Counted from the stretch's first letter, positions 1-16,908 are shown. The stretch: 41,650 nt of DNA from Rhodothermales bacterium (GCA_014879465.1 JACSSA010000120.1:1-41650); one strand, 5' to 3'. The notes: generated from the sequence alone by a model not told the origin. A program made the numbers and translations.

Positions 1-57
1 GGCCTCGGCGGCGGCGAGGGGCACGAGGGCGAGCAGCAGTGGCAGGAGGCGCTTCAT
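1..57 (-). CDS. N-terminus of an exported protein (partial, runs off the left edge)
   Basis: The complement of 55-57 is an ATG, and the 19 readable codons give a typical signal-peptide start: MKR followed by a Leu/Ala-rich hydrophobic stretch ending Ala-Ala-Ala-Glu-Ala. The ATG overlaps the stop codon of the PP2C gene in an ATGA arrangement, so it is probably translationally coupled and the last visible member of the signalling operon. Nothing can be said about the mature protein. An exported product fits the theme of this operon, in which three upstream proteins carry membrane anchors. Confidence 0.6.
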   Translation of the reverse strand, partial: MKRLLPLLLALVPLAAAEA

Positions 58-1265
58 CGGCCGGGGAGGCTGGGGGTGAGATCGGCGGGCGGCGAGGCCG
101 GTCGTTCGACGGGCGGCGGCCACACGTCGCTCGACGGCCCGGCGGCGCTGTCGCGGCGGGCGGGCACGGCCATCAGCGTGTCGGCTCCGCTGGGCGTGTG
201 CGCGAGCGAGTCGCGGCGGAGCGAGTCGGCGCGGAGACTGTCCACCCGCAAGCTGTCGGCGACGGCCCTGGGGGAGGGCAGAGGAGTTTGCGTTTTCCAG
301 AGCGCATACCCGCCCACGCCCGCCACGGCAAGCAGGCCCACGGCGAGCGGCCACGGCGACCGGCGGGGCGGTCGGTCGGGCGTCGTCGGCGCGGCCGAGC
401 GCGGCGCGGCGGGCATCGCCGAGGCGACGATGCTGGCGGTGTCCGGCTCGTCCAGCGTCGTATAGGTCGGGCGTAAGACGGTGACGCTCGGTTCGGGCGA
501 TGTGCCCGGCACGCCACCGACGGTCAGCACCACCACCGACACGTTGTCTTGGTGTGGTTTCTGGCGGGCGAGCGTGTCGTCTACAAGCGTTTGCGCAATC
601 TGGCCGAATGGCAGCGCGGCAAGGCGGCGGGCGATCTCGTCGTCGGCAAGGGTGCCGTGGAGGCCGTCGGAGCAGAGAAGCACGCGGTCGCCGGGGGCAA
701 GCGGTTCCGCGCCGCCGTCCACTTCCTGCACCCGCTCTTGGCCGAGGAAGCTGGTGAGGGCGCGGGCTTCGGGGTGGCCAAGGGCTTCGTCGAGCGAGAG
801 CAGCCCGGCGTCCACGCTCTTGCGCAGGCGCGAGGCGAGCGTGTGCTCGGTGTTGAGCTGGCGGAGGCGGTCGCCGTGGAACAGGTAGAGGCGACTGTCG
901 CCGACCGTGCGCCATGTGAGCATGCCGTTTTCGACGAGCACGGCGACGAACGTCGTGCCCATTTCGCCCGCCGCGCTCTGCTGGCGGGCCGCCTGCACGA
1001 CCGCCGACCCGGCGGCGGTGAGGGCGCGGTGCAGCACGTCGGCGGGGGATTCGGTGGGCGTCCGGCGTGCGAGCGCTGCGCTAAACGCCTCGACGGCCAC
1101 CCGCGACGCTTCGGCTCCACCCACCATCCCGCCCATCCCATCGGCCACCACCGCAGCGACGGTGCCGGGCGCGAAGCCGGGCACCGTCTCGACGGTGCGG
1201 ACGGCGTCCTGCTGCTGCGAGCGCTGCCCGATGTGCTGGGCCGATTCGAGGGAGGTCGTAGACAT
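54..1265 (-). CDS. PP2C-family Ser/Thr protein phosphatase with C-terminal membrane anchor
   Basis: 403 aa. The catalytic domain spans about residues 8-250 and shows the PP2C metal-binding signatures: QQD at 18-20, ADGMGG at 41-46, GDSR at 122-125, SDGL at 199-202 and DN at 240-241. PP2C enzymes remove phosphate from Ser/Thr using two metal ions. After a Pro/Ala-rich linker there is one hydrophobic segment at about 305-323, so the phosphatase should be cytoplasmic and tethered to the inner membrane, with about 80 residues outside. That tail has four tandem DSL units (337-354) and is then Pro-rich. It is the last complete gene of the kinase-FHA-vWA/FHA-PP2C operon, 8 bp after the vWA gene, and probably opposes the kinase encoded at 3626-5233. 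Family assignment is certain; the membrane topology is inferred. Confidence 0.95.
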   Translation of the reverse strand: MSTTSLESAQHIGQRSQQQDAVRTVETVPGFAPGTVAAVVADGMGGMVGGAEASRVAVEAFSAALARRTPTESPADVLHRALTAAGSAVVQAARQQSAAGEMGTTFVAVLVENGMLTWRTVGDSRLYLFHGDRLRQLNTEHTLASRLRKSVDAGLLSLDEALGHPEARALTSFLGQERVQEVDGGAEPLAPGDRVLLCSDGLHGTLADDEIARRLAALPFGQIAQTLVDDTLARQKPHQDNVSVVVLTVGGVPGTSPEPSVTVLRPTYTTLDEPDTASIVASAMPAAPRSAAPTTPDRPPRRSPWPLAVGLLAVAGVGGYALWKTQTPLPSPRAVADSLRVDSLRADSLRRDSLAHTPSGADTLMAVPARRDSAAGPSSDVWPPPVERPASPPADLTPSLPGR

Positions 1266-1273
1266 AGCAGAAG

Positions 1274-2974
1274 TTAGCGCTCAAACGTGACGCGCAGCTC
1301 GGTTTGGCCGAGCCGCACGAGATCGCCGTGTTCGAGCCGCCGCGGCCCGGCCAGCGGCACCCCGTTGACCACCGTGCCGTTGGTCGAGCCGGCGTCGGAA
1401 ATCAGCACGCCGCCGGGCGTGTTGATCAGCCGAGCGTGCCGTCCCGACACCGACGCGTCGCCCTCGATCACCACGTCGGCCTTCGAGGCGCTGCGGCCTA
1501 AGAATGCTTCGGTGTGCAGGGTTACGCGCTGCGACGTGTCGCCACGCATGGCGGTGAAACGCAGGACGACCGGGTCGGGGGAGGGTGGAGGCGTGGGAAC
1601 GGCAGGTGTGACGGCCACGGACGGCGGTGTGACGTCCGATGACGACGGCGAAGCGGGTGCGGACGCGTCAGCGGTCGGGCCGGGGGCTGGGCCGAGTTGT
1701 TCGTCTTCGCGGGCGATGCTGGCGGCCACGTCTTCGGGCGGACGCGGTGCGGCAGGCGGCGGGTTCTCGTTGGTGGCGGGCGCAGGCGGCCGTGCGAACG
1801 GGCGGCGACGGGCAAGCAACCATGCAGCTCCGAGCGCGGCCACGAGCAGCACGCCGAGGCCGTAGAGCCACGCGGGAAGGCCTTTGCGCGAGGCCGTTGG
1901 GGTGGGGTGGGAGGCGCTGTCGGCGTGTGCTGCGGCCGAGTCGGGCGGCGGCAAAAACCGCACGTCGAGGCCGTCGGAGAGGGTGCGCCCATCGGCGGCG
2001 GAGAGCGTAAGCTGTACGCGCTGCACCGCGCCGTCGGCCGCACAGGCGTCGCATAGAGCCGTGGCTACGAACGCCTCGCCCAGCCGGGTGCGCAGGCTGT
2101 CGAAGGCCGCTGTCACGTCCGCCCCGTCCACCCGTAGCAACGTGCCACCGGAGGTACGGGTAAAGCTACCGAGCGCGTCGAGGCCTGCGGTGTCGCCGTC
2201 GGGTGGGCGTACACCGAGGGCGTAGAGCGGCACCGGGTTTTGCTGGAAGGCGCGGAGGACTTCGTCGCGCTGAGCGCCACCAGGAAAATCGTCGAGGCCG
2301 TCGGAGAGGACGACCACGGCGCGCCGGGCGGGCAGGTCGGGGTCTTGCCGCCGAGCGAGGTCAGCCCCGCGCACGAGCGCTTCGTGCAGGCCGGTTTCGG
2401 CCTCGCTGGACGCGAGGTTGTCCACCGCAGCCCGCGCCGCGTTGCGGTTGCCTGTAAAGTCTTGCACCACGCGCACGGTCTGCCCAAACGCCACCACGGC
2501 TACCCGGTCGGCAGCGTTCATCCGGTCGATCCATTGCGCGATGGCCTGCTGCACCTGTTCGAAGTCGCGGGGGCGCAGCGAGCGGGATACATCGACCAGA
2601 AAGACGTAGGCGATCCCATCGGCGGCGGCCACGGGCGCGACGGACTCTACCGTGGCTGCGATGCGTCCGACGGTGAGCCGAACGTTCGCCGTGTTGGGAC
2701 GGGCAACACGGCGGCCGTCGTCGGTGCGGGCGTCGAAGAATACGCGGAGCGTGGGCAGCGGCCCGGCGGCCTGCACCACCTGTAGCGTAGCGGCCTCTGC
2801 GGCGTCCGGGCGTCCGGTCGTCCGCGTCGTGGTCGGGCGCGGCGTACGGCTGCGGTTAGGCGTGACGGTGTCGGCCCGTGGCGTCGTTGGGGCGGGCGTT
2901 GACTGCGCCAGCGCGCCCGGGACGAGCGTGGCGGCGAGTGCCATCGCCGAGATCAGGCGTCGGAGGCGTCCCAC
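1274..2974 (-). CDS. Exported vWA domain protein with membrane anchor and cytoplasmic FHA domain
   Basis: With the GTG start at 2974 the product is 566 aa and begins MGRLRRLIS followed by a hydrophobic run ending ALAQ, a good signal peptide. The ATG at 2944 is an alternative but lacks the basic n-region. A Thr/Pro-rich stretch precedes a vWA domain (about 122-300) with a MIDAS DxSxS motif at 128-132 and a second Asp in LSDGLDD (224-229). A transmembrane segment lies at about 367-388. After a long Pro/Ala linker comes a C-terminal FHA domain (about 470-566) with GRS at 493-495, SGRH at 510-513 and NG at 532-533, the phosphothreonine-recognition pattern. The vWA part is therefore predicted periplasmic and the FHA part cytoplasmic. 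The GTG start would overlap the preceding FHA gene by 22 bp. It probably links a periplasmic ligand to kinase output. Confidence 0.85.
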   Translation of the reverse strand: MGRLRRLISAMALAATLVPGALAQSTPAPTTPRADTVTPNRSRTPRPTTTRTTGRPDAAEAATLQVVQAAGPLPTLRVFFDARTDDGRRVARPNTANVRLTVGRIAATVESVAPVAAADGIAYVFLVDVSRSLRPRDFEQVQQAIAQWIDRMNAADRVAVVAFGQTVRVVQDFTGNRNAARAAVDNLASSEAETGLHEALVRGADLARRQDPDLPARRAVVVLSDGLDDFPGGAQRDEVLRAFQQNPVPLYALGVRPPDGDTAGLDALGSFTRTSGGTLLRVDGADVTAAFDSLRTRLGEAFVATALCDACAADGAVQRVQLTLSAADGRTLSDGLDVRFLPPPDSAAAHADSASHPTPTASRKGLPAWLYGLGVLLVAALGAAWLLARRRPFARPPAPATNENPPPAAPRPPEDVAASIAREDEQLGPAPGPTADASAPASPSSSDVTPPSVAVTPAVPTPPPSPDPVVLRFTAMRGDTSQRVTLHTEAFLGRSASKADVVIEGDASVSGRHARLINTPGGVLISDAGSTNGTVVNGVPLAGPRRLEHGDLVRLGQTELRVTFER

Positions 2975-3621
2975 GAGAAGCGATCGGAGCAAAGGGGAAG
3001 GAACAGCAGGACCGTCTTGCCTACCTCGATACGGTCGTACGGCGCAAGCGCCGTGGGCACATCTACCGAAGCGCCGTTGCGGTAGGTGAGCGACGCACTC
3101 TCGCCGGGGGCCACACGGAAGGCGTTGGCCCGTGGGTCGTAGACGATTACGCAATGCTTCTCCCGCGACACCGTGGTGTCGCCGGTGAGGGCAATGTGCA
3201 TCTGCGGCGAGCGGCCCACAAAGTTGCGCCCGGCGTGGAGGCGGTAGTCGCGCCCGCGTTCGGGGCCATCGACGCACACGAGCCAGCCCACCACCGGATC
3301 GACGCCGGTGGGCATCCGGTCGTTGTAGGCCACGGTGCGGCCTTCTTCCGGCGATGTGCCGGGTATTAGCGACGAGGCGGGAAGCGGCGCACCGCCTGCG
3401 CCGAGGCGCACGGTGGCCCCTTCCGGCGAAGGCCCGCAGGGGCGTGGGCCGGGCACATACAGGTCGGGCGCTTCCTCGGTGAAGTCGAGGCCGGGAATGC
3501 GCGGCGGGTTAGCCCCCGGCGGCACCGATGCGCTCAGCGGAACGGTAGGGCCGGGGTCGGGCGAGGCTCCAACGGGTGGACGGAAGGGGTCGTCGGGGTT
3601 GAACGGGGGAGGTGCGGACAT
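2953..3621 (-). CDS. FHA domain protein
   Basis: 222 aa from the ATG at 3621, chosen because the kinase gene stops at 3626-3628, four bases upstream; the open frame extends further but only into the kinase. The N-terminal half is Pro-rich and low in complexity. The C-terminal half (about 115-210) is an FHA domain with a GRSP motif, VSREKH in place of the usual S-x-x-H loop, and an Asn-Gly (YRNGAS). FHA domains bind phosphothreonine peptides, so this is a likely adaptor or substrate of the neighbouring kinase. There is no signal peptide or membrane segment, so it is presumably cytoplasmic. Family assignment is firm; the partner assignment rests on context. Confidence 0.9.
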   Translation of the reverse strand: MSAPPPFNPDDPFRPPVGASPDPGPTVPLSASVPPGANPPRIPGLDFTEEAPDLYVPGPRPCGPSPEGATVRLGAGGAPLPASSLIPGTSPEEGRTVAYNDRMPTGVDPVVGWLVCVDGPERGRDYRLHAGRNFVGRSPQMHIALTGDTTVSREKHCVIVYDPRANAFRVAPGESASLTYRNGASVDVPTALAPYDRIEVGKTVLLFLPLCSDRFSWDASDA

Positions 3622-3625
3622 CGGC

Positions 3626-5233
3626 TCAGAGGTTGAAATCGAACGGAACCACCACCGACGCTTCGACCGCTTCGCCGCCGCGTGTGGCCGGTTCAAAACG
3701 CCATTGCAGCACGGCCTTGACGGCGGCGGCGTCGAACACCGGGTCGGTGCTTTCTTCCACGCTCACATCCTTCACCGTACCGTCCGTGCCCACCAGAACC
3801 TTCACCAGCACCCGTCCCTCCAAGCCTTCGGCGGCGGCCTGTTCGGGGTATTGCGGGCGCACTTGCTCGACGGGGCGCGGTGACGTGGTCGCGACGAGTG
3901 CCGGGTCTTGTGCGGGCGGCTGCGACGGGTTTGGGGTGAACGTACCGGGGTCGGCGGACAGAGGGTCTTGCGAGGTGGATTCTGTCGAGGTCGGGGAGGG
4001 AGCATCCTGCTGGACAGGCGTCGCCGAGGTGGATGGATCGATCAGATCGGGGCGCTGGGTGAGCACATAAAAGCCTCCACCGAGCAACCCCAGCACCACG
4101 AGCGCCGCAACGACCGGCCCGGCCAGGCTGCGCCTCGGCTCTTCTTGCATATACGATGGCGTGGGCGCGTACATCGGCTGCGGGGTGTACGACGGCGGGT
4201 CGTACGACGGCGTGGGCGCGTAGGCGGGCGGTGCTGCAACGGGCGGCGCGTACGCTTGCGTGGGCGCGTACGCAGGCGTGATCGGCGGGGGCGTTTGAAA
4301 CGGCGTTGGCGCGGGAGGAGCGATGCCGCCGGCAAGAGCTTGCTCGAACGCCGCGACGTTTTGCGGGCGGTCTTCCGGACGAAGCGCGAGGCCCCACATC
4401 ACCGCGCGGGCGAGGGCCGGAGGCAGCGTCTCGCCGTACCGCTCCCGTACGGCCACGTCTACCGGCTGAAGCTCGTCCTGCACAATCCGCCCGGTGGACT
4501 CTTGCGGGACGAGGCCCGTCAGCATCCGGTACATCGTGGCGGCGAGGGCGTAGAGATCCGTCCACGGCCCCTGTCGTCCTTTGCTGGCGTACTGTTCGTA
4601 GGGCGCGTAGCCGGGCTTGAGCACCACCGAGAGGCTGCGCTGGCCGCCTTCGGCTTCGGCCACCGCCTGACGGGCCGCGCCGAAGTCCAGCAAGACGACC
4701 TGCTGGCGGTTCGTGACGTACACGTTGGCCGGATCGACGTCGCGGTGCAGCACGCCGGCCTCGTGGATTTCGCCAAGCGCGTCGAGCAGCGGGCGGGCAA
4801 TGGCGACGGCCGTTTCGGCGGGTACGCGGCCACCGACACGTTCGAGGTGGGCGGCCAGCGTACGGCCTTCCAGGTAGTCCATCACCAAGTACGCTGTGCC
4901 GTTCTCCTCGAAGAAGCTGCGCACCCGCACGATCGACGGGTGGTGGAACCGGGCGAGCATCCGCGCCTCGTCGAGAAACCGCTGACGGGCGTGGTCGAAG
5001 CCCGGCTTGTCGTCGGGGGTGATGGGCACGACCGTCCGTCCGTCGTGGGCGCGCCGGGCGAGGCCACGGGGGAAGAATTCCTTGACGGCCACGCGAGCTT
5101 CCAGCTGCGTATCGATGGCCAAGTAGGTAATGCCGAAGCCGCCGGGCTTGCCGAGCGCCCCTTCGATGCGGTAGACGCCGCCAAGGAGTGTGCCCGCCGG
5201 GAGCAGGATGGAGTCAAGCGTGGAATCTGCCAT
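3626..5233 (-). CDS. Ser/Thr protein kinase fused through a TM segment to a TonB C-terminal domain
   Basis: 535 aa. The kinase domain is about 18-300: Gly-rich loop GGFGITYLA (31-39), ATP-anchoring Lys51 in VAVKEFF, catalytic loop HRDVDPAN (163-170) and DFG at 183-185. Position 167 is Asp where Ser/Thr kinases normally have Lys. A Tyr-Ala-Pro-rich linker (about 320-362) leads to one transmembrane helix (about 371-391), a Ser/Thr/Pro spacer and a C-terminal TonB_C-like domain (about 455-535) with RPQYPEQA, the GTVKDVSVEES strand and the WRFEPA motif. The predicted topology is kinase inside, TonB_C outside. It is the first gene of the operon with FHA, vWA-FHA and PP2C genes. TonB_C domains normally contact outer-membrane receptors or act as periplasmic interaction modules; here it may be a sensor. 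Domain calls are firm; the signalling role is inferred. Confidence 0.92.
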   Translation of the reverse strand: MADSTLDSILLPAGTLLGGVYRIEGALGKPGGFGITYLAIDTQLEARVAVKEFFPRGLARRAHDGRTVVPITPDDKPGFDHARQRFLDEARMLARFHHPSIVRVRSFFEENGTAYLVMDYLEGRTLAAHLERVGGRVPAETAVAIARPLLDALGEIHEAGVLHRDVDPANVYVTNRQQVVLLDFGAARQAVAEAEGGQRSLSVVLKPGYAPYEQYASKGRQGPWTDLYALAATMYRMLTGLVPQESTGRIVQDELQPVDVAVRERYGETLPPALARAVMWGLALRPEDRPQNVAAFEQALAGGIAPPAPTPFQTPPPITPAYAPTQAYAPPVAAPPAYAPTPSYDPPSYTPQPMYAPTPSYMQEEPRRSLAGPVVAALVVLGLLGGGFYVLTQRPDLIDPSTSATPVQQDAPSPTSTESTSQDPLSADPGTFTPNPSQPPAQDPALVATTSPRPVEQVRPQYPEQAAAEGLEGRVLVKVLVGTDGTVKDVSVEESTDPVFDAAAVKAVLQWRFEPATRGGEAVEASVVVPFDFNL

Positions 5234-5374: not shown

Positions 5375-6796
5375 TTAATAGGCATTCTGGTGGACGAAGC
5401 CCTTGAACACGGTCAGCAGCACGATCTTGAAATCGAGCTTGAGCGACCAGTTCTGGATGTAGTACAGATCGTACTCGATCCGTTTCTCGAGGCTCGTGTC
5501 GCCGCGCCAGCCGTGCACCTGCGCCCAGCCGGTGATGCCCGCCGGGACGGTGTGCTTGAGCATGTAGCCCGGCACGCGTTGCCGGAATTCGTCCACAAAC
5601 ACCGGGCGCTCCGGGCGCGGCCCGACCACGCTCATCTGTCCGATGAACACGTTCCAGAACTGAGGCAGTTCGTCGAGACTCGTGCGCCGCAGAAACGACC
5701 CCAACGGCGTGGCCCGCTGCTCGCCCGGTTTCGCCCACACGGCACCCGTTTCGGCTTCGGCGTTGACGGGCATGGAGCGGAATTTGAGCATCCCGAAGCG
5801 CTGGCCGCCGAGCGTGACGCGCTCTTGTCGGTAGAAGATCGGCCCCGGCGACGACAGCTTGACGCCCACGGCGATGACGAGCAGCAGCGGCGAGAGCAGC
5901 ACCAGCACGGCGGCCGAGAAGACGACGTCGAACACCCGTTTGAGCGCCCAGGTGAGCCGCCTCGGCACCTCGTCGATCAGATGCAGCACCGGCAGCCCGT
6001 CGAGGTCGGTGGCGCGGGCGTTGAGCACGCCAAGGTCGGGAAGGTCGGGGACGTAGTAGACGCGGGCGGTGCGGCTGGAGAGGCCCTCCATCAAGGCTTC
6101 GATGCGGGGCGCGGCTCCCAGCGGCAGGGCGAGGTAGACGTCGTGGATGGGGCGGCCTGCCGCTTCGGCGGCGTCGAGGCGGGCGAGCGTTTCGTCGATC
6201 GGCCCGTCTACCGGCAGATGGGTGGAGCGGGGCACATCGTCGAGCACGGCCACGATCTCCATCCGCGCCCAAACGTAGTGGGCGAGCGTTTGGGCAATGC
6301 GTTCGCCCACGCGCCCGCTGCCCACGAGCAGCACCCGCCGCTCGGTGCGTTGCCGGCGCATCCACCCGTAGAGCATCGCCCGCGCCAAGATCAGCAGCAG
6401 CGGCACGAGCAGGCCAAAGAGCAGCAGGAAGCCCCGCGAGATGTTGAACGAGCGGTAGAACGAAAGCAGCGTGGCCGCCAGCAACAGCACCATCGCCGAC
6501 GCTTTGAGCGCGCTCCATACAATCCGAAACAGGTGCAGCCCGCGCTCGGCGGCGTAGAGGCCGGAGAGGTAGAACACGAGCGAGCCGCCCAGCATGGCCC
6601 ACGGCAAAAGCCACAGGTAGGCGCGTACGGGCGTGTCGTCGGGTGGGACGAACCACGCCGGGCCAATACCGTGTGCGTGCAGCCACGGCAGCACGTCAAA
6701 GCGCAGCACGAACGCCAGCCCGAATGCAACCGCCACCAGCGCAAGGTCGGCGAACAGAAAAATGCGCTGGAAAAGTCGGCTTTGCTCTTGGAGCAT
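5375..6796 (-). CDS. Undecaprenyl-phosphate sugar phosphotransferase (exopolysaccharide initiating enzyme)
   Basis: 473 aa, a usual length for the WcaJ/WbaP-type polyprenyl glycosylphosphotransferase family. The N-terminal part has about four to five transmembrane helices, followed by a Rossmann-like region starting RRVLLVGSGRVGERIA. The C-terminal catalytic domain begins after another membrane segment at KRVFDVVFS and carries the family motifs KFRSM, DELPQFWNV, SVVGPRPE and KHTVPAGITGWAQV. These enzymes transfer a hexose-1-phosphate from a UDP-sugar to undecaprenyl phosphate at the inner membrane and so start exopolysaccharide or O-unit assembly. No other polysaccharide-assembly genes are visible nearby, so it seems to be a stand-alone gene. 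The ATG at 6796 is preceded by a possible promoter box. The sugar specificity (glucose or galactose) cannot be read from sequence. Confidence 0.93.
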   Translation of the reverse strand: MLQEQSRLFQRIFLFADLALVAVAFGLAFVLRFDVLPWLHAHGIGPAWFVPPDDTPVRAYLWLLPWAMLGGSLVFYLSGLYAAERGLHLFRIVWSALKASAMVLLLAATLLSFYRSFNISRGFLLLFGLLVPLLLILARAMLYGWMRRQRTERRVLLVGSGRVGERIAQTLAHYVWARMEIVAVLDDVPRSTHLPVDGPIDETLARLDAAEAAGRPIHDVYLALPLGAAPRIEALMEGLSSRTARVYYVPDLPDLGVLNARATDLDGLPVLHLIDEVPRRLTWALKRVFDVVFSAAVLVLLSPLLLVIAVGVKLSSPGPIFYRQERVTLGGQRFGMLKFRSMPVNAEAETGAVWAKPGEQRATPLGSFLRRTSLDELPQFWNVFIGQMSVVGPRPERPVFVDEFRQRVPGYMLKHTVPAGITGWAQVHGWRGDTSLEKRIEYDLYYIQNWSLKLDFKIVLLTVFKGFVHQNAY

Positions 6797-9069: not shown

Positions 9070-10200
9070 TCAGTCGGCGGTTTTGCGGTAGCGCAGCACG
9101 GCCAGCGGCAGCACGACGGCTCCGAAGGCGACGGTGGCGGCGAGGTGCCCGGCGACCTCCCGTGCGGTGGCCCCGCGCAGCAGCACGGCACGGATCGTCT
9201 CGGCAAAATGCTGCACGGGGTTGCACGCCGCCACGGCCTGCGCCCACGCGGGCATCGAGCGCACGGGCGTAAAGATGCCACCGAGGAAGAGCATCGTGAC
9301 GAGCGCGAAGAACGTCAGGAACATCGCTTGCTGTTGCGTCTGCGCGGCGGTGGAGATGAGCAGCCCGAGGCCGAGCACGGCGGGCAGGTACAGCGCCGCC
9401 GCCGCAAACACGAGCAGGGGCGAGCCGACAAACGCCACGCCGAAGCCGTACCGCACGATCAACAGGCCAAGCGCCAGTTCCAACAGGCCGAGCGCCCAGA
9501 ACGGCAGCATCTTGCCAAGCAAGAACGTGCTGCGCGTCAGCGGCGTCACGTTGAGCTGTTCGAGCGTGCCGATCTCGCGCTCGCGGGCGATGTTCTGCGA
9601 CGTGAGCAGGATGCCGATGATGCTCACGAGCGAGGCCAGAAGCCCCAGCGCCATCGACGGGCGGTACGCGCCGGTGGGGTTGAACAGCCGCCGCGTTTCG
9701 ACCTGCACGCCGGGGCGGGCGCGGACGAACCGTTGCGTCATCGCGGGCGGCGACGTCGCGGCTTCGGCGCGGGCGAACCCGGCGAGCACGTTGGCGGCGT
9801 AGCCCTGCACCACCCCCGCCGCCGCGCCGTCTTCGGCGTTGAGCACGAGCTGGACGGTGGGCGCGCGCCCCGATCGGAGGTCGCGTGCGAACCCCTCTGG
9901 AATCGCCAGCACCGCCCCGGCCTGCCGGCGAAGCAGGGCATCGTCGGCGCGGGCAGGCGACGGCGTGTCGAGCACGACGCCGAAGCGTCCGGTGGACGTG
10001 AACGCTTCCACGAGCCGCGCCGAGGCCGTCGAGCGGTCGAAGTCCACCACGGCGAGGTTCGTGTGCTTCACCTCGAACGTCATCACCTGCGCCAAAAGCA
10101 GCAGCTGCACCATCGGCGGCAGCACGATCTGGATGCGCATCACCCGGTCGCGCAGCACCTGCACGATCTCTTTGCGGACAAGGGCGAGAAGGGCACGCAT
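9070..10200 (-). CDS. ABC-2 type efflux permease, second of two (YbhR/YbhS-like)
   Basis: 376 aa from the ATG at 10200, matching the conserved start LVRKEIVQVLRDR; the open frame runs further but only through the spacer. There is one N-terminal membrane helix, a large extracytoplasmic domain (about 40-170) and five to six C-terminal helices containing the REREIGTLEQLNVTPL motif typical of this family and an NPVQHFAETIRAVLLRG tail. It forms the membrane channel with the permease encoded just upstream and is driven by the two ATPases of the same operon. The substrate is unknown; relatives are linked to export of drugs or lipophilic compounds. It is the last gene of the TetR-TolC-HlyD-ATPase-permease operon. 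Confidence 0.9.
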   Translation of the reverse strand: MRALLALVRKEIVQVLRDRVMRIQIVLPPMVQLLLLAQVMTFEVKHTNLAVVDFDRSTASARLVEAFTSTGRFGVVLDTPSPARADDALLRRQAGAVLAIPEGFARDLRSGRAPTVQLVLNAEDGAAAGVVQGYAANVLAGFARAEAATSPPAMTQRFVRARPGVQVETRRLFNPTGAYRPSMALGLLASLVSIIGILLTSQNIAREREIGTLEQLNVTPLTRSTFLLGKMLPFWALGLLELALGLLIVRYGFGVAFVGSPLLVFAAAALYLPAVLGLGLLISTAAQTQQQAMFLTFFALVTMLFLGGIFTPVRSMPAWAQAVAACNPVQHFAETIRAVLLRGATAREVAGHLAATVAFGAVVLPLAVLRYRKTAD

Positions 10201-10261
10201 CGGAGAGGATAGACGATGAAGGGTAGGGAGAGGCCTCGTAGGGGGCGATCTCGATCGGTTC

Positions 10262-11353
10262 TTACAAGCGGTCTTTGAGCGAGCGCGAGGCTGCGACGAG
10301 CAGCAGCGCCGCCATTGCAAACAGGACGATCAGTTCTTTCGCCAGCCCCGTGAAGCCAAGGCCTTTGAGCATCGCGCCGCGCGCAGCGAGGATGTACCAT
10401 GTGGCCGGGACGATCTGCGTGACGGGACGAATCCACGCGGGCATGCTGGAGATGGGGAAGACGAAGCCGGAGAGCGCGAGCGTGGGCAGGAGCAGACCGA
10501 GGAGCGTGCCCATCATGGCCGTCCGCTGGTCGGGGGTTTTGGACGAGATGAGCACGCCGAGCGCGAGCGAGCCGAGCATGTAGGCGAGCGTGGCCACGAG
10601 CAGCGCCGCGAGGCTGCCGCGCATCGGCACATGGAAGACGAACCGCGCCACCGCGAGCGCCGTCAGCGCGTTCACGAAGGCGAGCACGAGGTACGGCGCG
10701 ACCTTGCCGACCACCATCGCGCCGGGCCGGAGCGGGGAGACGAGCAGCACCTCCATCGTCCCCGATTCCTTCTCCCGCGAGATGGAAAGGGCCGTCATCA
10801 GCGCCGAGACGAGCGTGAGCACATACGCCAAAAGCCCCGGCACGAACAGCGCCTCGCTCTTCATCTCCGGATTGAACCGCATCCGCGTCGCCACGCGGAC
10901 GGTGGGCGCTCGCGCGCCCTGCTGCGCCGCCCACGTCTGCACGACCTGGCGGACGTAGCCCTCGGCGGCGGCGGCGTAGTTGGGCGTCGTGCCGTCGGTC
11001 ACCACCAGCACTTCGGCCGTGCCCCGCGCAAACGAGGCCCCAAACGCCGCCGGGAGGACGAGCGCCACCGACGCCCGTCCCGTCCGCAGCGCCGGCTCGA
11101 TGGCCGCCGGTGCCCCGTCCACCCCCACGAGCCGCAGCGCGGGCGTCGCCGCCACGGCCCGCGTCAGGTCGAGGCTCTGGCCGTCCCGGGCGGCGTCCAC
11201 GACGAGCACGCGCACGTCCTGCACGTCGGTGCGGATGGCGAAGCCGAAGAGCAGCACCATCACCACCGGCAGGGCCAGCAGCACGCCGAGCGTCTGCCGG
11301 TCGCGCAGGATGTGGCGCGTCTCCTTGACGACGAGGCTGCGGAAGGCGGACAT
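10262..11353 (-). CDS. ABC-2 type efflux permease, first of two (YbhS-like)
   Basis: 363 aa from the ATG at 11353, beginning MSAFRSLVVKETRHILRDRQTLG, the characteristic cytoplasmic N-terminus. One helix follows, then a large extracytoplasmic loop (about 45-165) and a six-helix block with SREKESGTMEVLLVSPL and a C-terminal VPATWYILAARGAMLKG motif. It is a paralogue of the 9070-10200 product, and the two should form a heterodimeric channel. A 90 bp spacer with short direct repeats separates it from the ATPase gene, longer than the other gaps in this operon. Confidence 0.9.
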   Translation of the reverse strand: MSAFRSLVVKETRHILRDRQTLGVLLALPVVMVLLFGFAIRTDVQDVRVLVVDAARDGQSLDLTRAVAATPALRLVGVDGAPAAIEPALRTGRASVALVLPAAFGASFARGTAEVLVVTDGTTPNYAAAAEGYVRQVVQTWAAQQGARAPTVRVATRMRFNPEMKSEALFVPGLLAYVLTLVSALMTALSISREKESGTMEVLLVSPLRPGAMVVGKVAPYLVLAFVNALTALAVARFVFHVPMRGSLAALLVATLAYMLGSLALGVLISSKTPDQRTAMMGTLLGLLLPTLALSGFVFPISSMPAWIRPVTQIVPATWYILAARGAMLKGLGFTGLAKELIVLFAMAALLLVAASRSLKDRL

Positions 11354-11375
11354 GGGGGAAAGTTGAGGGTGGGGA

Positions 11376-11398
11376 GTTGGTGGTTGTCGGTTGGTGGT
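11376..11398. repeat. Short direct repeat GTTGGTGGT
   Basis: GTTGGTGGT occurs at 11376-11384 and again at 11390-11398 in the spacer between an ATPase gene and the first permease gene. The surrounding sequence is simple and G/T-rich on the plus strand. It may be a decayed intergenic repeat. No function can be assigned. Confidence 0.4.
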
Positions 11399-11443
11399 CG
11401 TGTCGAGAGAAAAGGCTTTCGGACACCTGCCCACCGCCAACGG

Positions 11444-12205
11444 TCAACCGTTTCGGGCAAGGCGCAGGAAGACGCCGTCCATCGAGTCGGTGCCAAACCG
11501 GGCCTTGAGTTCCGCGGGCGTGCCGAGGGCGGCGAGGCGTCCGTCTACCATGATGGAAACGCGGTCGCAGTATTCGGCCTCGTCCATATAGTGCGTCGTC
11601 ACGAACACCGTGGTGCCGCGCTGGGCGGTGGCGTAGATCGTCTCCCAAAACTGCCGCCGCGTGGCGGGATCGACGCCGCCGGTGGGTTCGTCGAGGAAGA
11701 CGACGGCGGGGCGATGAAGCAGGGCCACGCCGAAGGCCAGCCGCTGCTTCCAGCCGAGCGGGAGGCGGCCCACGCGCTCGTCGGCGCTGCGTTCGAGCGC
11801 GAGGTCGGCCAGCAGCGCGTCGAGGCGTTCGCGGACGACGGCGGGCGGCAGGTTGTAGAGGCCGCCGAAGAACCGGACGTTTTCGCGCACCGTCAGGTCG
11901 TCGTACAGCGCAAACCGCTGGCTCATGTAGCCGATGCGCCGCTTGACGGCATCGGGGTCGGCGGCGACGTTGATGCCGGCCACGAGCGCTTCTCCGCTGG
12001 AGGGTGCAAGAAGGCCGGTGAGCATCTTCATCGCCGTCGTCTTGCCCGCGCCGTTGGCCCCGAGGAATCCGAAGACCTCGCCCTCGGCCACGTCGAACGA
12101 AAGCGCATCGACGGCCACGAACGTCCCGAACGTGCGCGTCAGGTCGCGTGCCCATACCGCCGTGCCGGGCGGGATGTCGAACGAAGGCGCTGGGGCGTTA
12201 GACAT
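11444..12205 (-). CDS. ABC transporter ATP-binding protein, second NBD of the efflux system
   Basis: 253 aa from the ATG at 12205, which overlaps the end of the preceding ATPase gene by 8 bp; the longer open frame only reads through that gene. The Walker A motif is GANGAGKTT, the Q-loop is in YMSQRFALYDDL and the Walker B is VVFLDEPTGGVD, followed by an H-loop (VTTHYMDEAEYCD). The signature region reads VGRLPLGWKQRLAFG instead of a plain LSGGQ, which is usual for this subfamily. In E. coli YbhF the two nucleotide-binding domains are one polypeptide; here this is the C-terminal half as a separate gene. Confidence 0.93.
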   Translation of the reverse strand: MSNAPAPSFDIPPGTAVWARDLTRTFGTFVAVDALSFDVAEGEVFGFLGANGAGKTTAMKMLTGLLAPSSGEALVAGINVAADPDAVKRRIGYMSQRFALYDDLTVRENVRFFGGLYNLPPAVVRERLDALLADLALERSADERVGRLPLGWKQRLAFGVALLHRPAVVFLDEPTGGVDPATRRQFWETIYATAQRGTTVFVTTHYMDEAEYCDRVSIMVDGRLAALGTPAELKARFGTDSMDGVFLRLARNG

Positions 12206-13169
12206 CGGGGCGGGCCATGCGGTGGAGGAAGACGTCTTCGACGGACGGCGCGACGGGCCGCACATCCACATCGGCAAACCCGGCGGCGACGAGCGCGTCG
12301 CGGACGGTCGCGGCCAGATGTTCGTCGGCGCTTGGGCCGGAGGATCCGGCTCCGGTGACGTGCATCCAATCGCCAAAGATTTCGGCGCGGGCCACGCCGG
12401 GCGTGTGGCGGAGCGCGGCGAGCAGCGCCACGCGATCCATCGTGGCCGCGCCGGGCCGTTGGGCGCGGACCTCCACGAGCGGCGCGGGGAAGGCGCGGGC
12501 CACGGCGTCGGGCGTGTCGGGCGGGCCGAGCAGCCGTCCGTCCTGCACGAGCGCGATGCGGTCGCAGCGGGCCGCCTCGTCCATGTACGGCGTCGAGACG
12601 AGCGTGGTGATGCCGCTGTCGCGGAGCGTGGCGAGCACGTCCCAGAACTCGGCGCGGCTCACGGCGTCCACGCCGGTCGTCGGTTCGTCGAGCAGCAGCA
12701 GGCGCGGGCGGTGGACGAGCGCGCACGAGAGCGCGAGCTTCTGCTTCATCCCGCCGGAGAGCGCCCCGGCGCGTCGGTGGGCGAAGGGTTCGATCTGGGC
12801 GTAGATCGGCTCCACGATGGCGCGGCCCTCGGCGACGGTCGTGCCGAAGACGTCGGCGAAGAAGGCGAGGTTCTCGGCGACGGTCAGGTCGGGGTAGAGC
12901 GAGAACCGGCCGGGCATGTAGCCGAGCCGCAGGCGGAGCGCGCGGTAGTCGCGCACGAGGTCGAGCCCGTCGAGGGTGGCCGTGCCTGCGTCGGGCAGCA
13001 GCAGCGTGGCGAGCAGGCGGAAGAGCGTGGACTTGCCCGCGCCGTCGGGGCCGACGATGCCGAAGAGTTCGCCGGGGGCGACGTCGAACGACACGTCGGC
13101 GAGCGCTTCGACCGAGCCGAAGCGCTTCGACAGGCCGCGCACGGCGACGGAGGCGGGGGCATTGGGCAC
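12198..13169 (-). CDS. ABC transporter ATP-binding protein, first NBD of the efflux system
   Basis: 323 aa. Walker A is GPDGAGKST, the signature motif LSGGMKQKLAL and Walker B LLLLDEPTTGVD, followed by the H-loop analogue VSTPYMDEAARCD, in which the switch His is replaced by Pro (S-T-P instead of T-T-H). This could mean one degenerate ATP site, as in many asymmetric ABC exporters. About 80 residues follow the NBD and contain a region related to the accessory domain of CcmA/YbhF-type ATPases. Its stop overlaps the next ATPase start by 8 bp and it begins 3 bp after the membrane-fusion gene, so the two are co-translated. Confidence 0.93.
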   Translation of the reverse strand: MPNAPASVAVRGLSKRFGSVEALADVSFDVAPGELFGIVGPDGAGKSTLFRLLATLLLPDAGTATLDGLDLVRDYRALRLRLGYMPGRFSLYPDLTVAENLAFFADVFGTTVAEGRAIVEPIYAQIEPFAHRRAGALSGGMKQKLALSCALVHRPRLLLLDEPTTGVDAVSRAEFWDVLATLRDSGITTLVSTPYMDEAARCDRIALVQDGRLLGPPDTPDAVARAFPAPLVEVRAQRPGAATMDRVALLAALRHTPGVARAEIFGDWMHVTGAGSSGPSADEHLAATVRDALVAAGFADVDVRPVAPSVEDVFLHRMARPDV

Positions 13170-13172
13170 GGG

Positions 13173-14321
13173 TTAGGGTGTGTCTTGGAGGAAGCGCACT
13201 TCGCCGGGCATCCCGATCTTGACCGTGCCCTGCGGGTCGTTCACCTTCACGTCGAAGGCGTAGACGAGCGTGGCGCGTTCGTCTTTCGTCTGGATGGGCG
13301 TGGGCGTGAACTGGGCGTTGGCGGCCACGAACACCACCTCGCCGGGGAGCGTGCGCAGGCCGCCCGCGCCGTCGTCTACCCGCACCTCGACGCGCTGGCC
13401 GAGGCGGAGCCGGGCCAGTTGGTTGCCGGTGGCGTAGGCCCGCAGCTTGAGCGCCCCGAGCGCGCCGACGGTGTAGAGCGGCGATCCCGGCGCGACGACC
13501 TCGCCCGGCTCGGCCACGGTGGTCAGAACGGTGCCCGCCACGGGGTTGCGCACGGTCGCGTTGGCCAGCCGGGCGTCGATCCCGGCGATCTGCGCGTCGA
13601 TGCCGGCGACCTGATCGTCGAGGGCGGCGGCCTGCGCCTCGGGCACGCCCGCTTGGGCGGTTTGGGATGTGCTCTGGGCCGATTGAACGCCGCCTTGGGC
13701 CGTCTGGACGGCGGCTTGCGCGTCGGCGGCGCTCGCTTGGGCGCGGATGCTGGCGACGCGGGCGCGGGCTTGGTCGCGTTGGGCTTCGAGGGCGGCCACT
13801 TGCCCTTGTCGCTCGTTGCGCTCGCGGTCGGTGGCGGCGCGGGCGGCGTACAGGCGCTCGGTGCGGGCGAGTTCTTCGCGTGCCGTGGCCAACTGCGCGT
13901 CGAGGGCGCGCAGCGCGGCGTCGGCCTCGGCGACGGTGGCGAGCGTAGCCGCGCCTTGGGCAAGGGCGGCTTGGCGACCGGCGACGGCGACGGCCTCGCC
14001 TGCCGTGGACACGCCGCGCCCGGCAAGGGTGGCACGGGCTTGGGCGAGCAGCGCCCGCTTCTGGCCGAGAATCTGGCGGCGTTGGGCCACGAGCGCATCG
14101 CGCTGGGCGACCAACTGCGTCGTATCGACCACGCCCACGGCCTGCCCGGCCGTCAGGGCGTCGCCCTCGTGCACGTCGAAGGCGAGAAGCCGTCCTTCGG
14201 CCTGCGCCGAGACGGTGGTTTCGGTGGCTTGGAACGTGCCGTAGGCGTCGGCATCGTCGGCAGAGCGGCAGCCGGCGAGCGGCGCGGCAAGCAAGGCGAG
14301 CGAAAGGAAGGTGCGGGTCAT
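13173..14321 (-). CDS. HlyD-family membrane fusion lipoprotein of the efflux system (YbhG-like)
   Basis: 382 aa. The N-terminus MTRTFLSLALLAAPLAGC ends in a lipobox (LAGC), so the mature protein should be a lipoprotein anchored at Cys18. A biotinyl-lipoyl-like half (about 38-65) is followed by a long Ala/Gln-rich coiled-coil hairpin (about 70-230) full of AQ repeats, then the second lipoyl half (VRNPVAGTVLTTVAEPGEVV) and a beta-barrel domain. It would bridge the inner-membrane permeases and the TolC-family channel encoded immediately upstream. The arrangement matches YbhG of the CecR-controlled YbhGFSR system. Confidence 0.93.
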   Translation of the reverse strand: MTRTFLSLALLAAPLAGCRSADDADAYGTFQATETTVSAQAEGRLLAFDVHEGDALTAGQAVGVVDTTQLVAQRDALVAQRRQILGQKRALLAQARATLAGRGVSTAGEAVAVAGRQAALAQGAATLATVAEADAALRALDAQLATAREELARTERLYAARAATDRERNERQGQVAALEAQRDQARARVASIRAQASAADAQAAVQTAQGGVQSAQSTSQTAQAGVPEAQAAALDDQVAGIDAQIAGIDARLANATVRNPVAGTVLTTVAEPGEVVAPGSPLYTVGALGALKLRAYATGNQLARLRLGQRVEVRVDDGAGGLRTLPGEVVFVAANAQFTPTPIQTKDERATLVYAFDVKVNDPQGTVKIGMPGEVRFLQDTP

Positions 14322-14335
14322 GGCAAACGCAGGAT

Positions 14336-15619
14336 CTAACGACCAAGAAGAAGACGAAGGCGGGCCTCGGCCTGCGCCCGTTCGATGCGGTGGCGGGCCT
14401 GCACCAGCCGCGCCTCCTCGACGCCGCCAAGGGCACGGACGTAGTCGGGCACCAGCGCGACGCCTTCGTCGAGCCGGGCGCGGGCCACGCGCAGGATTTC
14501 TTCGCGGAGTTCGAGGATGCGGGCGTCGTCGCCGGGCGTCGTGGCCAAGCGTTCGAGCGTGGCCCGCTCGTCGTCCCCGTCGCGGGCGAACCGTCGGCGT
14601 AGCGCCTCGGCCTCCAGCCGCGACGACTCGGCGAGCGTCCCCGCCAGCGCCGCTGCTCGGCCCGACGAGCCGTAGTCGAACGGTGTCCAGCGCAGCCGCA
14701 CCCCGACGAGGCCGAACGGCTTGGTCTCGTCACTGAACGGTTCGAACGGACTGGGCCGGGCCACGCCTGCCTGCCCGAACACGCTCACCGACGGCAACCG
14801 CGTGGTTCGGGCCAACTGGGCTTCGGCAGCGGCGCGGGCTTCGGTTCGGGCCAGCCGCTCCAACTCCGGGCGTGCAGCGTCGGCGGCAAGCCGCGCCGAC
14901 GGGTCGGGCGGCGGCAGGGCAAACGGTCGAGCGTTCACCGGAAGGCCTGTAAGGTCTTCAAGGAGCGTCCGGGCGGTGCGGGCCTGCGCCTCGGCTTCCT
15001 GCACCCGCTGCCGGGCGCGGAGGCGTTCGGCTTCCAGCGCCGCCACATCGGCATCGAGCGCCGCACCGTTCTGAGCGCGCGCCCGCATCGCCGCCGTTTG
15101 CGCGTCGAGGTCGGCCACGGCCAGCGCGGCAATGCGGGCCTGCGTCTCCGCGAGCAGCGCCGCGAAATAGGCCTCGGAAGCGGCCTCGCGCAGCGGATAG
15201 AGCGTGGCGCGGAGGCCGGCGAGGTCTTCCGCCTGCCGGGCCGTCTCGACCGCGCTCCGCTGTGTCCGACGACCGCCGTCGAACACGTTCCAGTCGGCCT
15301 CCACCTGCGCCCGCGCCTGCACATGCGGAATGTCGGGGCCGGAGCCGCCGGGGAGTGCAATCGGCAGTTCCGGCACGCCGCTCTGGGCCGTCGTCTGGGC
15401 CGTCGCCGCGAACTGCGGATAGCCCTCGGCACGGATCGACGCCTGCCGCAGCCGCGCGGCCCGTTCGATCAGCGCCGCCGTGCCGGTGCGCGGGTCGTGG
15501 CGTTCGGCCGCCGTCTGCACGTCGGAGAGGCGCAGCGTGTCGGACGTTTGCGCCGCCGTTGGCGTTGCCGCCAGCGCGAGGAGAAGGGTCGAAGGGAGGA
15601 TTGACCGGACGGTTAACAT
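14336..15619 (-). CDS. TolC-family outer membrane efflux channel
   Basis: 427 aa with a signal peptide (MLTVRSILPSTLLLALAATPTAAQ). The protein is a tandem of two long Ala/Glu/Arg-rich coiled-coil regions with a short beta segment in each half (VEADWNVFDGGRRTQRSA and VGVRLRWTPFDYGSSGRAA), the internal duplication typical of TolC/OEP proteins. It forms the outer-membrane exit duct of the tripartite pump. It sits between the TetR gene (18 bp) and the HlyD gene (14 bp), so this operon encodes its own outer-membrane component. Confidence 0.93.
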   Translation of the reverse strand: MLTVRSILPSTLLLALAATPTAAQTSDTLRLSDVQTAAERHDPRTGTAALIERAARLRQASIRAEGYPQFAATAQTTAQSGVPELPIALPGGSGPDIPHVQARAQVEADWNVFDGGRRTQRSAVETARQAEDLAGLRATLYPLREAASEAYFAALLAETQARIAALAVADLDAQTAAMRARAQNGAALDADVAALEAERLRARQRVQEAEAQARTARTLLEDLTGLPVNARPFALPPPDPSARLAADAARPELERLARTEARAAAEAQLARTTRLPSVSVFGQAGVARPSPFEPFSDETKPFGLVGVRLRWTPFDYGSSGRAAALAGTLAESSRLEAEALRRRFARDGDDERATLERLATTPGDDARILELREEILRVARARLDEGVALVPDYVRALGGVEEARLVQARHRIERAQAEARLRLLLGR

Positions 15620-15637
15620 CGGGGCAAAAAGAAGAGA

Positions 15638-16282
15638 TCAGGGCGCGAAGGCGCGGAGCAGCGTGTCGGCCAGCTCGGCGCGTCGCCACGCGGCAAGGCG
15701 GTCGAGTGCGGCGGCATCGAGGCCGAGCAGCGTGTTCAGCATGTGCGACCCTGCGAACGGAAAGACGGCCAGCGAGAGAAAGGCCACGAGGAACGTCTCG
15801 GCCTGTGTGGGGCGGAGCCGTCCGGCAGCAGCCTCGGCATCGAGGTCGGCTTGAAGCGCTGCAACGAGCTGTTGCTGCGCCGTCTCCACCGGCAGCACCG
15901 CGTGCAGCAGCCGGGTGAGGCGGGCGGCATCGGTGCGCAGCTCGCACATCACAAAGCCGGGCAGAAACGGGTTGGCCGTGGCCGCGTCGGTTTGCAGCTG
16001 GATGGCGCGTAGGAGCTTCTCGCGCAGCGGGAGGCCGGAGACGAAGGTCGCCACCATCGGCGGGAATAGATGGCGTGCGGCTTCCAGAAAGACCGCGTCG
16101 GCGAGGTTCTCCTTGGAGCGGTAGTAGTAGTGCAGGAGCGCCTTGTTGACGCCCGCCTCGTCCGCGATCTCCTGCGTGCGTGCTGCCGCCACGCCGCGCC
16201 GGACGAACACGCGCCGCGCCGCGTCGAGGATTTGGGCTTCGGTGGAGCGGTCGTCGGGCACGTTTTTTTGTGATTTGACCAT
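15638..16282 (-). CDS. TetR-family transcriptional regulator of the efflux operon
   Basis: 214 aa from the ATG at 16282. The N-terminal helix-turn-helix domain (about 12-65) has the family pattern AQILDAARRVFVRRGVAAARTQEIADEAGVNKALLHYYYRSKENL. The C-terminal helical ligand pocket is less conserved; its start, LREKLLRAIQ, and the closing helices resemble CecR/YbiH-type regulators. It is the first gene of the efflux operon, 18 bp before tolC, and is probably an autorepressor that responds to a pump substrate. A small palindrome GTTC-C-GAAC lies at 16308-16316, 26 bp upstream of its start, and is a weak candidate operator. Confidence 0.92.
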   Translation of the reverse strand: MVKSQKNVPDDRSTEAQILDAARRVFVRRGVAAARTQEIADEAGVNKALLHYYYRSKENLADAVFLEAARHLFPPMVATFVSGLPLREKLLRAIQLQTDAATANPFLPGFVMCELRTDAARLTRLLHAVLPVETAQQQLVAALQADLDAEAAAGRLRPTQAETFLVAFLSLAVFPFAGSHMLNTLLGLDAAALDRLAAWRRAELADTLLRAFAP

Positions 16283-16908
16283 ACGGATAATCCAAACGGG
16301 TAAGAGAGTTCCGAACATCGCACTTTTGGGAACAGACGATACCCCCAGCCAGCGGGAGGCCAGTCTCGTGCGGCCTCGATCGCGCCTCGACCGCGCCGCT
16401 GTCGCTCCAAGCAAGCTGGCGTAATGTCAAGTCATACAAAAAGCAAGAAAATCAAGAGTGCGGAAAAGACGAGCGTACCGACTATACCCATCAAGCCTAC
16501 CCCTAAGCGGCTTTCGGTAGGCACCGTCTCGTTCTCCGGTCAACCCCACGAACGTGGGAATTCAGAGTTATTTCGGACAAATGGATCCTCATCTCTGCGA
16601 GGACGGTCGGAGCCACCTCGTCGGACTTAGCTGCGTCTGGATAGCACGTTTTCCGCTCGGATTGCCTCGCGCCACTCCTCTGTTTGCCGGAGCGCGCAGT
16701 CTTCTTTGTAGCTTCCGAAGCCCTGCGCAAAAAGATGCCGTAGCGAAGTGGAGCGCTCCTGTTCGTCCCGCGTCTCGTTCAGGCGTATTGAGCTGGAAAT
16801 AGGCGAAGGGTGTGCATGTTAGAAAGAAGTGTGCAGGGAACTTGGTTGCCGGAGCGTTTCAAATATGAACGAGAGGTAAATAAAAGTGGAGGGGGCGGTG
16901 AAAATCCC
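16283..16908. other. Gene-poor, relatively AT-rich stretch
   Basis: More than 600 bp lie between the TetR start and the promoter of the IclR gene without a confidently supported gene. Base composition is noticeably less GC-rich than in the flanks, especially around 16430-16600. Short frames exist (for example 16424-16630 plus and 16503-16730 minus) but have no start context or recognisable similarity. One minus-strand frame (16627-16818) looks protein-like and is listed separately as a possible remnant. TTCA-N4-TGAA at 16857-16868 is a small palindrome upstream of the IclR promoter. Confidence 0.6.
16627..16818 (-). pseudogene. Possible C-terminal remnant of an unknown gene
   Basis: A 63-codon open stretch on the minus strand ends in TAA at 16627-16629. 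It has a protein-like, charged, non-repetitive composition (for example LRHLFAQGFGSYKED and EEWREAIRAENVL), unlike the Arg/Pro/Ala text of shadow frames here. It begins directly after an in-frame stop and has no ATG, GTG or TTG before the conserved-looking part, so it would be a truncated fragment. I do not recognise the family. It may equally be chance. Confidence 0.2.

Follow-up and report, generated by a model that had tools for sequence, protein, structure and literature searches.

Organization of the locus

A run of four genes on the minus strand (54-5233) lies at one end of a 41,650-nucleotide stretch of Rhodothermales bacterium DNA (GCA_014879465.1, JACSSA010000120.1:1-41650), hereafter the window. 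The window is a complete contig (C201), one of 219 in the genome, and its base 1 is therefore a contig end. In minus-strand order, the genes encode a Ser/Thr kinase with a transmembrane (TM) helix and a TonB_C domain, an FHA protein (FHA1), a protein that joins a signal peptide, a vWA domain, a TM helix and an FHA domain (vWA-TM-FHA), and a PP2C phosphatase with a TM helix, with intergenic spacings of 4, -22, and 8 nt. Pfam domains and TM predictions thus confirm the four neighboring genes described in the original prediction.

The kinase (3626-5233) comprises a Pkinase domain at residues 24-290 (Pfam E-value 1e-29), a predicted TM helix at 374-392, a proline-rich linker and a TonB_C domain at 459-535 (3e-23). 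It retains K51, HRD and DFG, and its catalytic loop reads HRDVDPAN instead of HRDxKPxN. This loop raised the suspicion of an inactive kinase, which was dropped, as about half of 91 relatives have Ser at the K position. FHA1 (2953-3621) has a disordered N-terminus that includes Thr96 (GRTVA), followed by a GarA-like FHA domain at residues 110-209, recognized by Pfam (FHA, 3e-7), by the family alignment and by a structural model with a pLDDT of about 97 across the domain. In the phosphatase (54-1265), a PP2C domain at residues 1 to about 250 (PP2C_2, 1e-15), whose metal-binding Asp residues are intact and invariant, precedes a TM helix at 305-323, which is a weaker helix call (mean hydropathy 1.51), and a Ser/Asp-rich tail.

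The vWA-TM-FHA gene (1274-2974) was assigned a GTG start that yields a signal peptide, while the longest open reading frame extends to 3277. Its product carries a vWA domain within a beta-sandwich at residues 63-339 (VWA, 2e-16) and a canonical FHA domain at 469-565 (4e-16). In the AlphaFold2 model (mean pLDDT 82), the vWA domain is inserted between strands of the beta-sandwich and is followed by a helix at 368-389 (370-388 by hydropathy) and an FHA fold; its nearest solved structures by Foldseek include inter-alpha-inhibitor heavy chain 1, Sulfolobus ArnB (8s05, rank 4-5) and a mycobacterial FHA domain. Since RRR follows the TM helix, the FHA domain is predicted to be cytoplasmic, and the set as a whole is predicted to span the membrane with vWA outside and FHA inside. 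The metal-ion-dependent adhesion site (MIDAS) positions D128, S130, S132, T194, and D225 are kept in 49, 45, 44, 40, and 48 of 49 vWA-TM-FHA proteins, respectively, and the phosphothreonine-pocket positions R494, S510, N532, T534, and N537 of the FHA domain in 47, 47, 47, 48, and 49; both sets of residues are intact in the window protein. Several vWA-TM-FHA ectodomains also have a CxxC pair after the vWA domain (residues 308-311 in the window protein), which is missing from many Clostridia members.

Conservation of the gene set among bacteria

A scan of public genomes with an FHA1 alignment and the pattern [DE]PVVGW[LV]V[CI] returned 452 stretches, 448 of which were confirmed as encoding FHA1 relatives. 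The best 80 came from Bacillota, several classes of Pseudomonadota, Synergistota, Acidobacteria, Nitrospirae, Bdellovibrionales, Ignavibacteria and Bacteroidetes. We read 82 loci with FHA1, in which genes were called by a self-trained script of simple design and domains were marked by hidden Markov models built from these loci. The loci were selected for FHA1 similarity and are therefore not a random sample; moreover, because many end at contig ends, the gene counts are minimum values for the loci that were read. A kinase occurred in the same-strand run at 65 of them, PP2C at 71, vWA-TM-FHA at 46, another FHA protein at 60 and a MotA/ExbB-type protein at 17. When the set is defined as FHA1 with a [DE]PVVGW[LV]V motif together with kinase, PP2C and vWA-TM-FHA genes in one same-strand run, it is present in full in the window (54-5233) and at 37 of the 82 loci. 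The gene right after FHA1 encodes vWA-TM-FHA in the window and at 25 of these loci. The original prediction of a kinase, FHA and PP2C set holds: the genes form a coherent set that other phyla have also kept together as a unit. Where a conserved gene order had been proposed as a check, gene content is conserved and the exact order varies between loci.

Closer to the window, full-length vWA-TM-FHA relatives were found in four others among 114 genomes of the same order, namely G034 (36% identity) and G105-G107 (24-25%), and each of these lies beside genes for FHA1, a kinase and PP2C. In G034, the set adjoins an integrase core gene (rve; L035 14151-14855), a possible sign of mobility. A related set, found in some further genomes of the order (G005, G006, G007 and G015), combines FHA1 and PP2C with a TM-FHA protein, a vWA protein encoded separately and a protein of the MotA/TolQ/ExbB type. 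When 395 genomes from the window's phylum were sampled, 14 matched at 1e-10, and the strong matches (E < 1e-70) all fell within the same order.

Bacterial kinase, FHA and phosphatase genes often adjoin, and their order differs between the present loci, as would be seen in an ordinary cluster of unrelated genes that a vWA gene had joined by chance. We consider such a cluster very improbable, given that the vWA-TM-FHA architecture stands beside FHA1 in several phyla with its active-site residues conserved. FHA1 and vWA are co-inherited: their distances correlate with r = 0.80-0.81 across 46 loci (one copy of each), and none of 2000 shuffles exceeded 0.26. The recurrence of the same combination across phyla confirms that the set is more than a chance assembly.

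Discussion

In the current study, we characterized a gene set whose conserved residues, domain content and co-inheritance, together with its predicted topology, led us to infer a relay that works through phosphothreonine at the inner membrane. The reading that we favor, although we place it slightly short of an even chance, is that the operon belongs to a widespread bacterial relay in which TM-FHA proteins are recruited through FHA1 in a kinase-dependent manner, giving an inside-out output. The kinase would detect an outside cue through its variable ectodomain (TonB_C in the window) and phosphorylate FHA1 at the conserved N-terminal threonine, for which Thr96 (codon 3334-3336) is the candidate in the window by its spacing to the FHA domain. 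The canonical FHA tails of the membrane proteins, here the vWA protein and elsewhere often a trypsin-like protease, would then bind phospho-FHA1; binding would gather or activate the outer vWA or protease domains, and PP2C would reset the relay. It is conceivable, though we hold this with considerable doubt, that clustering of TM-FHA proteins by phospho-FHA1 controls vWA-mediated assembly and trypsin-like proteolysis outside the cytoplasmic membrane, and that some lineages couple this to a proton channel of the MotA/ExbB type together with its partner.

We read the direction of the proposed relay from its variable parts. No part of the set varies more than the kinase ectodomain: in a table of every family with more than two members matched among 59 kinases from such loci, TPR accounts for 8, FGE-sulfatase for 7, Sel1 for 7 and PASTA for 4. 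TonB_C is not in that table and can therefore occur in at most two of the 59, the window included; none of the kinase matches listed within the order extends past residue 488 of 535. TonB_C, which the original prediction placed among the periplasmic modules of the set, is not borne out as a core module and, as judged from these comparisons of sequence, is incidental to the set. The kinase of G034 (L035 6841-8913) terminates in an FGE-sulfatase (formylglycine-generating-enzyme-like) domain where the window has TonB_C. A protease is most often the second TM-FHA partner, with trypsin-like domains in 28 of the 37 non-vWA TM-FHA proteins, M48 in two and PrsW in two; an M48 peptidase-FHA fusion stands in place of the trypsin-like form at L055 7912-9087, and the PrsW-type fusions occur in two other loci. 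Because variability is greatest in the kinase ectodomain and the second partner is usually a protease, we place the input at the kinase and the output at the TM-FHA proteins. The original prediction suggested that a signal could flow from outside to inside through vWA. In such a scheme, vWA (and TonB_C) would bind an envelope ligand and alter the cytoplasmic FHA domain, which would recruit kinase substrates or FHA1. The same anatomy would serve it, as a single TM helix separates vWA from FHA and the MIDAS, a ligand-binding site in other vWA domains, is intact. However, the sensor-like part is the kinase ectodomain, the proteases that alternate with vWA are more output-like than sensor-like, and TonB_C is not conserved, so that we regard the outside-in scheme as unlikely, though by no means negligible.

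The threonine assigned to the inside-out relay also invites comparison with GarA and OdhI, the closest solved structures to the FHA1 model. A Thr lies 11 or 12 residues N-terminal to [DE]PVVGW in 72 of 82 FHA1 proteins, compared with a linker Thr frequency of 7.7%, and the residue at this spacing in the window is Thr96, 12 residues ahead of the FHA domain; a MAFFT alignment alternatively assigns the family Thr column to Thr70 (GATVR). GarA and OdhI likewise have one FHA domain with a Thr N-terminal to it, and a membrane kinase partner in the PknB/PknG systems, where GarA is a PknB substrate; they act by binding and inhibiting enzymes of central metabolism, 2-oxoglutarate dehydrogenase among them. 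The fold match and the conserved Thr stand beside an NCBIfam OdhI score of 26.1 bits against a cut-off of 200. FHA1 could be a soluble switch of the GarA/OdhI kind, in which phospho-Thr folds back against the FHA domain of the same protein to regulate a cytoplasmic enzyme, leaving the vWA and protease proteins to read other phosphoproteins. In contrast to GarA and OdhI, whose Thr motif is ETTS, the motif of FHA1 is GxTVA at 11-12 residues upstream, and FHA1 is encoded with TM-FHA proteins, adjoining their genes, often with overlap, and diverging together with them. Furthermore, the pocket Asn is replaced in the FHA1 consensus (SRGLVYLN vs. STNGTxVN), so self-binding may be weak. On this evidence, we think a purely soluble switch improbable, if still worth weighing.

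Several observations nevertheless weigh against the inside-out relay. The FHA1 threonine may bind its own FHA domain, as it does in GarA and OdhI, and in the AlphaFold2 model of FHA1 the segment around the Thr is disordered and shows no docking. The window kinase has Asp where most relatives carry Ser or Lys, and its activity is therefore not certain. The MIDAS motif is degenerate or lost in three same-order relatives (L036-L038), and neither a vWA-FHA nor a protease-FHA gene was found at 24 of the 82 loci, many of which end at contig ends. Finally, shared species history accounts for part of the correlation between FHA1 and vWA distances.

Among known systems, the threonine phosphorylation pathway of type VI secretion (PpkA-Fha-PppA) likewise has a membrane kinase, an FHA reader, a PP2C eraser and a periplasmic signal (PMC10482370, PMC1262709), and its kinase PpkA also bears a vWA domain (PMC1262709). 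It could therefore be argued that the present set is a type VI secretion regulator left without its machine. Here, however, vWA is on the TM-FHA protein rather than the kinase, there is an extra GarA-like FHA1, and the set also occurs in Bacillota. In agreement with the original prediction, which saw no type VI secretion genes, a search for VipB (PF05943), the one gene of that machine looked for, gave no matches in the window's genome (G000) while the E. coli control was positive, although this absence is not absolute since the genome is in 219 contigs. TIGR03354, the TagH/Fha family of type VI secretion, scored 37.7 bits against the vWA-FHA protein, far under its cut-off of 120.25, and no type VI secretion gene was seen among the neighbors examined with Pfam, which were a minority. 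An orphaned regulator of this kind is thus highly unlikely.

The closest described FHA-vWA pair that we found is ArnA-ArnB of the archaellum regulatory network in Sulfolobus (PMC6509490, PMC12852372), in which a kinase and a phosphatase regulate a zinc-finger FHA protein and its partner, a vWA protein set in a beta-sandwich. Most FHA1 relatives have an N-terminal zinc-ribbon-like motif (C..GH in 71 of 82), whereas the window's FHA1 is without it. Unlike the window protein, whose vWA domain is predicted to lie outside the cytoplasm and is fused to its own FHA domain, ArnB has neither TM helix nor FHA, and its phosphorylation falls on a C-terminal four-helix bundle; in the model of the window protein, TM and FHA follow the vWA/sandwich in place of such a bundle. 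The phosphatase also differs, being PP2A there and PP2C here. PknB/PrkC kinases have PASTA ectodomains, found in four of the 59 relatives as noted above, in contrast to the TonB_C of the window kinase. TerY-P triads consist of TerY-type vWA, PP2C and kinase-zinc-ribbon genes. Both these triads and the actinobacterial GAP1-N2 systems, in which vWA, PP2C and kinase genes are adjacent and zinc ribbons occur (PMC7159879), share with the present set the adjacency of these genes and a kinase with a zinc ribbon or TM helices, but their vWA is stand-alone rather than TM-FHA and FHA1 goes unmentioned. As originally predicted, no described system with this combination was found by keyword in the open-licence literature, with subscription journals outside the scope, and the bacterial FHA1/vWA-TM-FHA set is apparently unnamed.

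The fifth gene noted in the original prediction is present as an open reading frame start with a signal peptide, overlapping the PP2C stop at ATGA, but amounts to a 19-codon fragment (1-57, minus strand) stopped by the contig end. Contig C11 of the same genome begins inside a TM-FHA gene (C11:1-549), whose FHA domain matches the trypsin-like protease-TM-FHA family at 99.8% probability, and a TM-FHA, other FHA or protease-FHA gene directly follows PP2C in 36 of 94 cases. On both grounds, it is plausible that the two fragments are one further TM-FHA gene. The ends of C201 and C11 do not overlap in sequence, however, and the three trypsin-like matches of the genome are on other contigs, within long open reading frames; adjacency of the two contigs is therefore hypothetical. 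On the other side of the run, the same-strand neighbors are a lone sugar transferase (5375-6796) and an efflux run of TetR, OEP, HlyD, ABC, and ABC-2 (9070-16414), neither of which is an obvious functional partner.

Other neighbors were recorded among the relatives. A MotA/TolQ/ExbB-type protein followed by a short TM-coiled-coil protein occurs at L058 8214-9777 and also at L072, L104, L115, L124, L125, and L126; the short protein, with an N-terminal motif REINIFNxSxLDxxxGA, resembles a MotB/ExbD partner, and in L090 the partner carries vWA-like sequence. The window's genome has one MotA_ExbB match, on contig C204. GH3 enzymes and LTD/endonuclease neighbors were judged unrelated by appearance. 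In Synergistota, gene sizes at L078 had suggested a link to a Tad/Flp pilus; this was dropped when the sequence starts were seen to resemble ABC-transporter and TRAP-like transport genes. Antiphage defense was also considered and rejected, as PADLOC gave generic kinase matches for the window kinase and weak ZorA/ZorB matches for the MotA/MotB-like neighbors.

Sets of kinase, FHA and PP2C genes are known; what is distinct here is a group of membrane readers that carry, as their second half, a vWA or protease domain predicted to lie outside the cytoplasm. If the proposed relay is correct, bacteria of many phyla would act on their envelope from inside under the control of phosphorylation. Thr96, the FHA pocket, the MIDAS and the protease serine would then provide single-residue handles on the relay, and its cultured relatives include Methylomonas.

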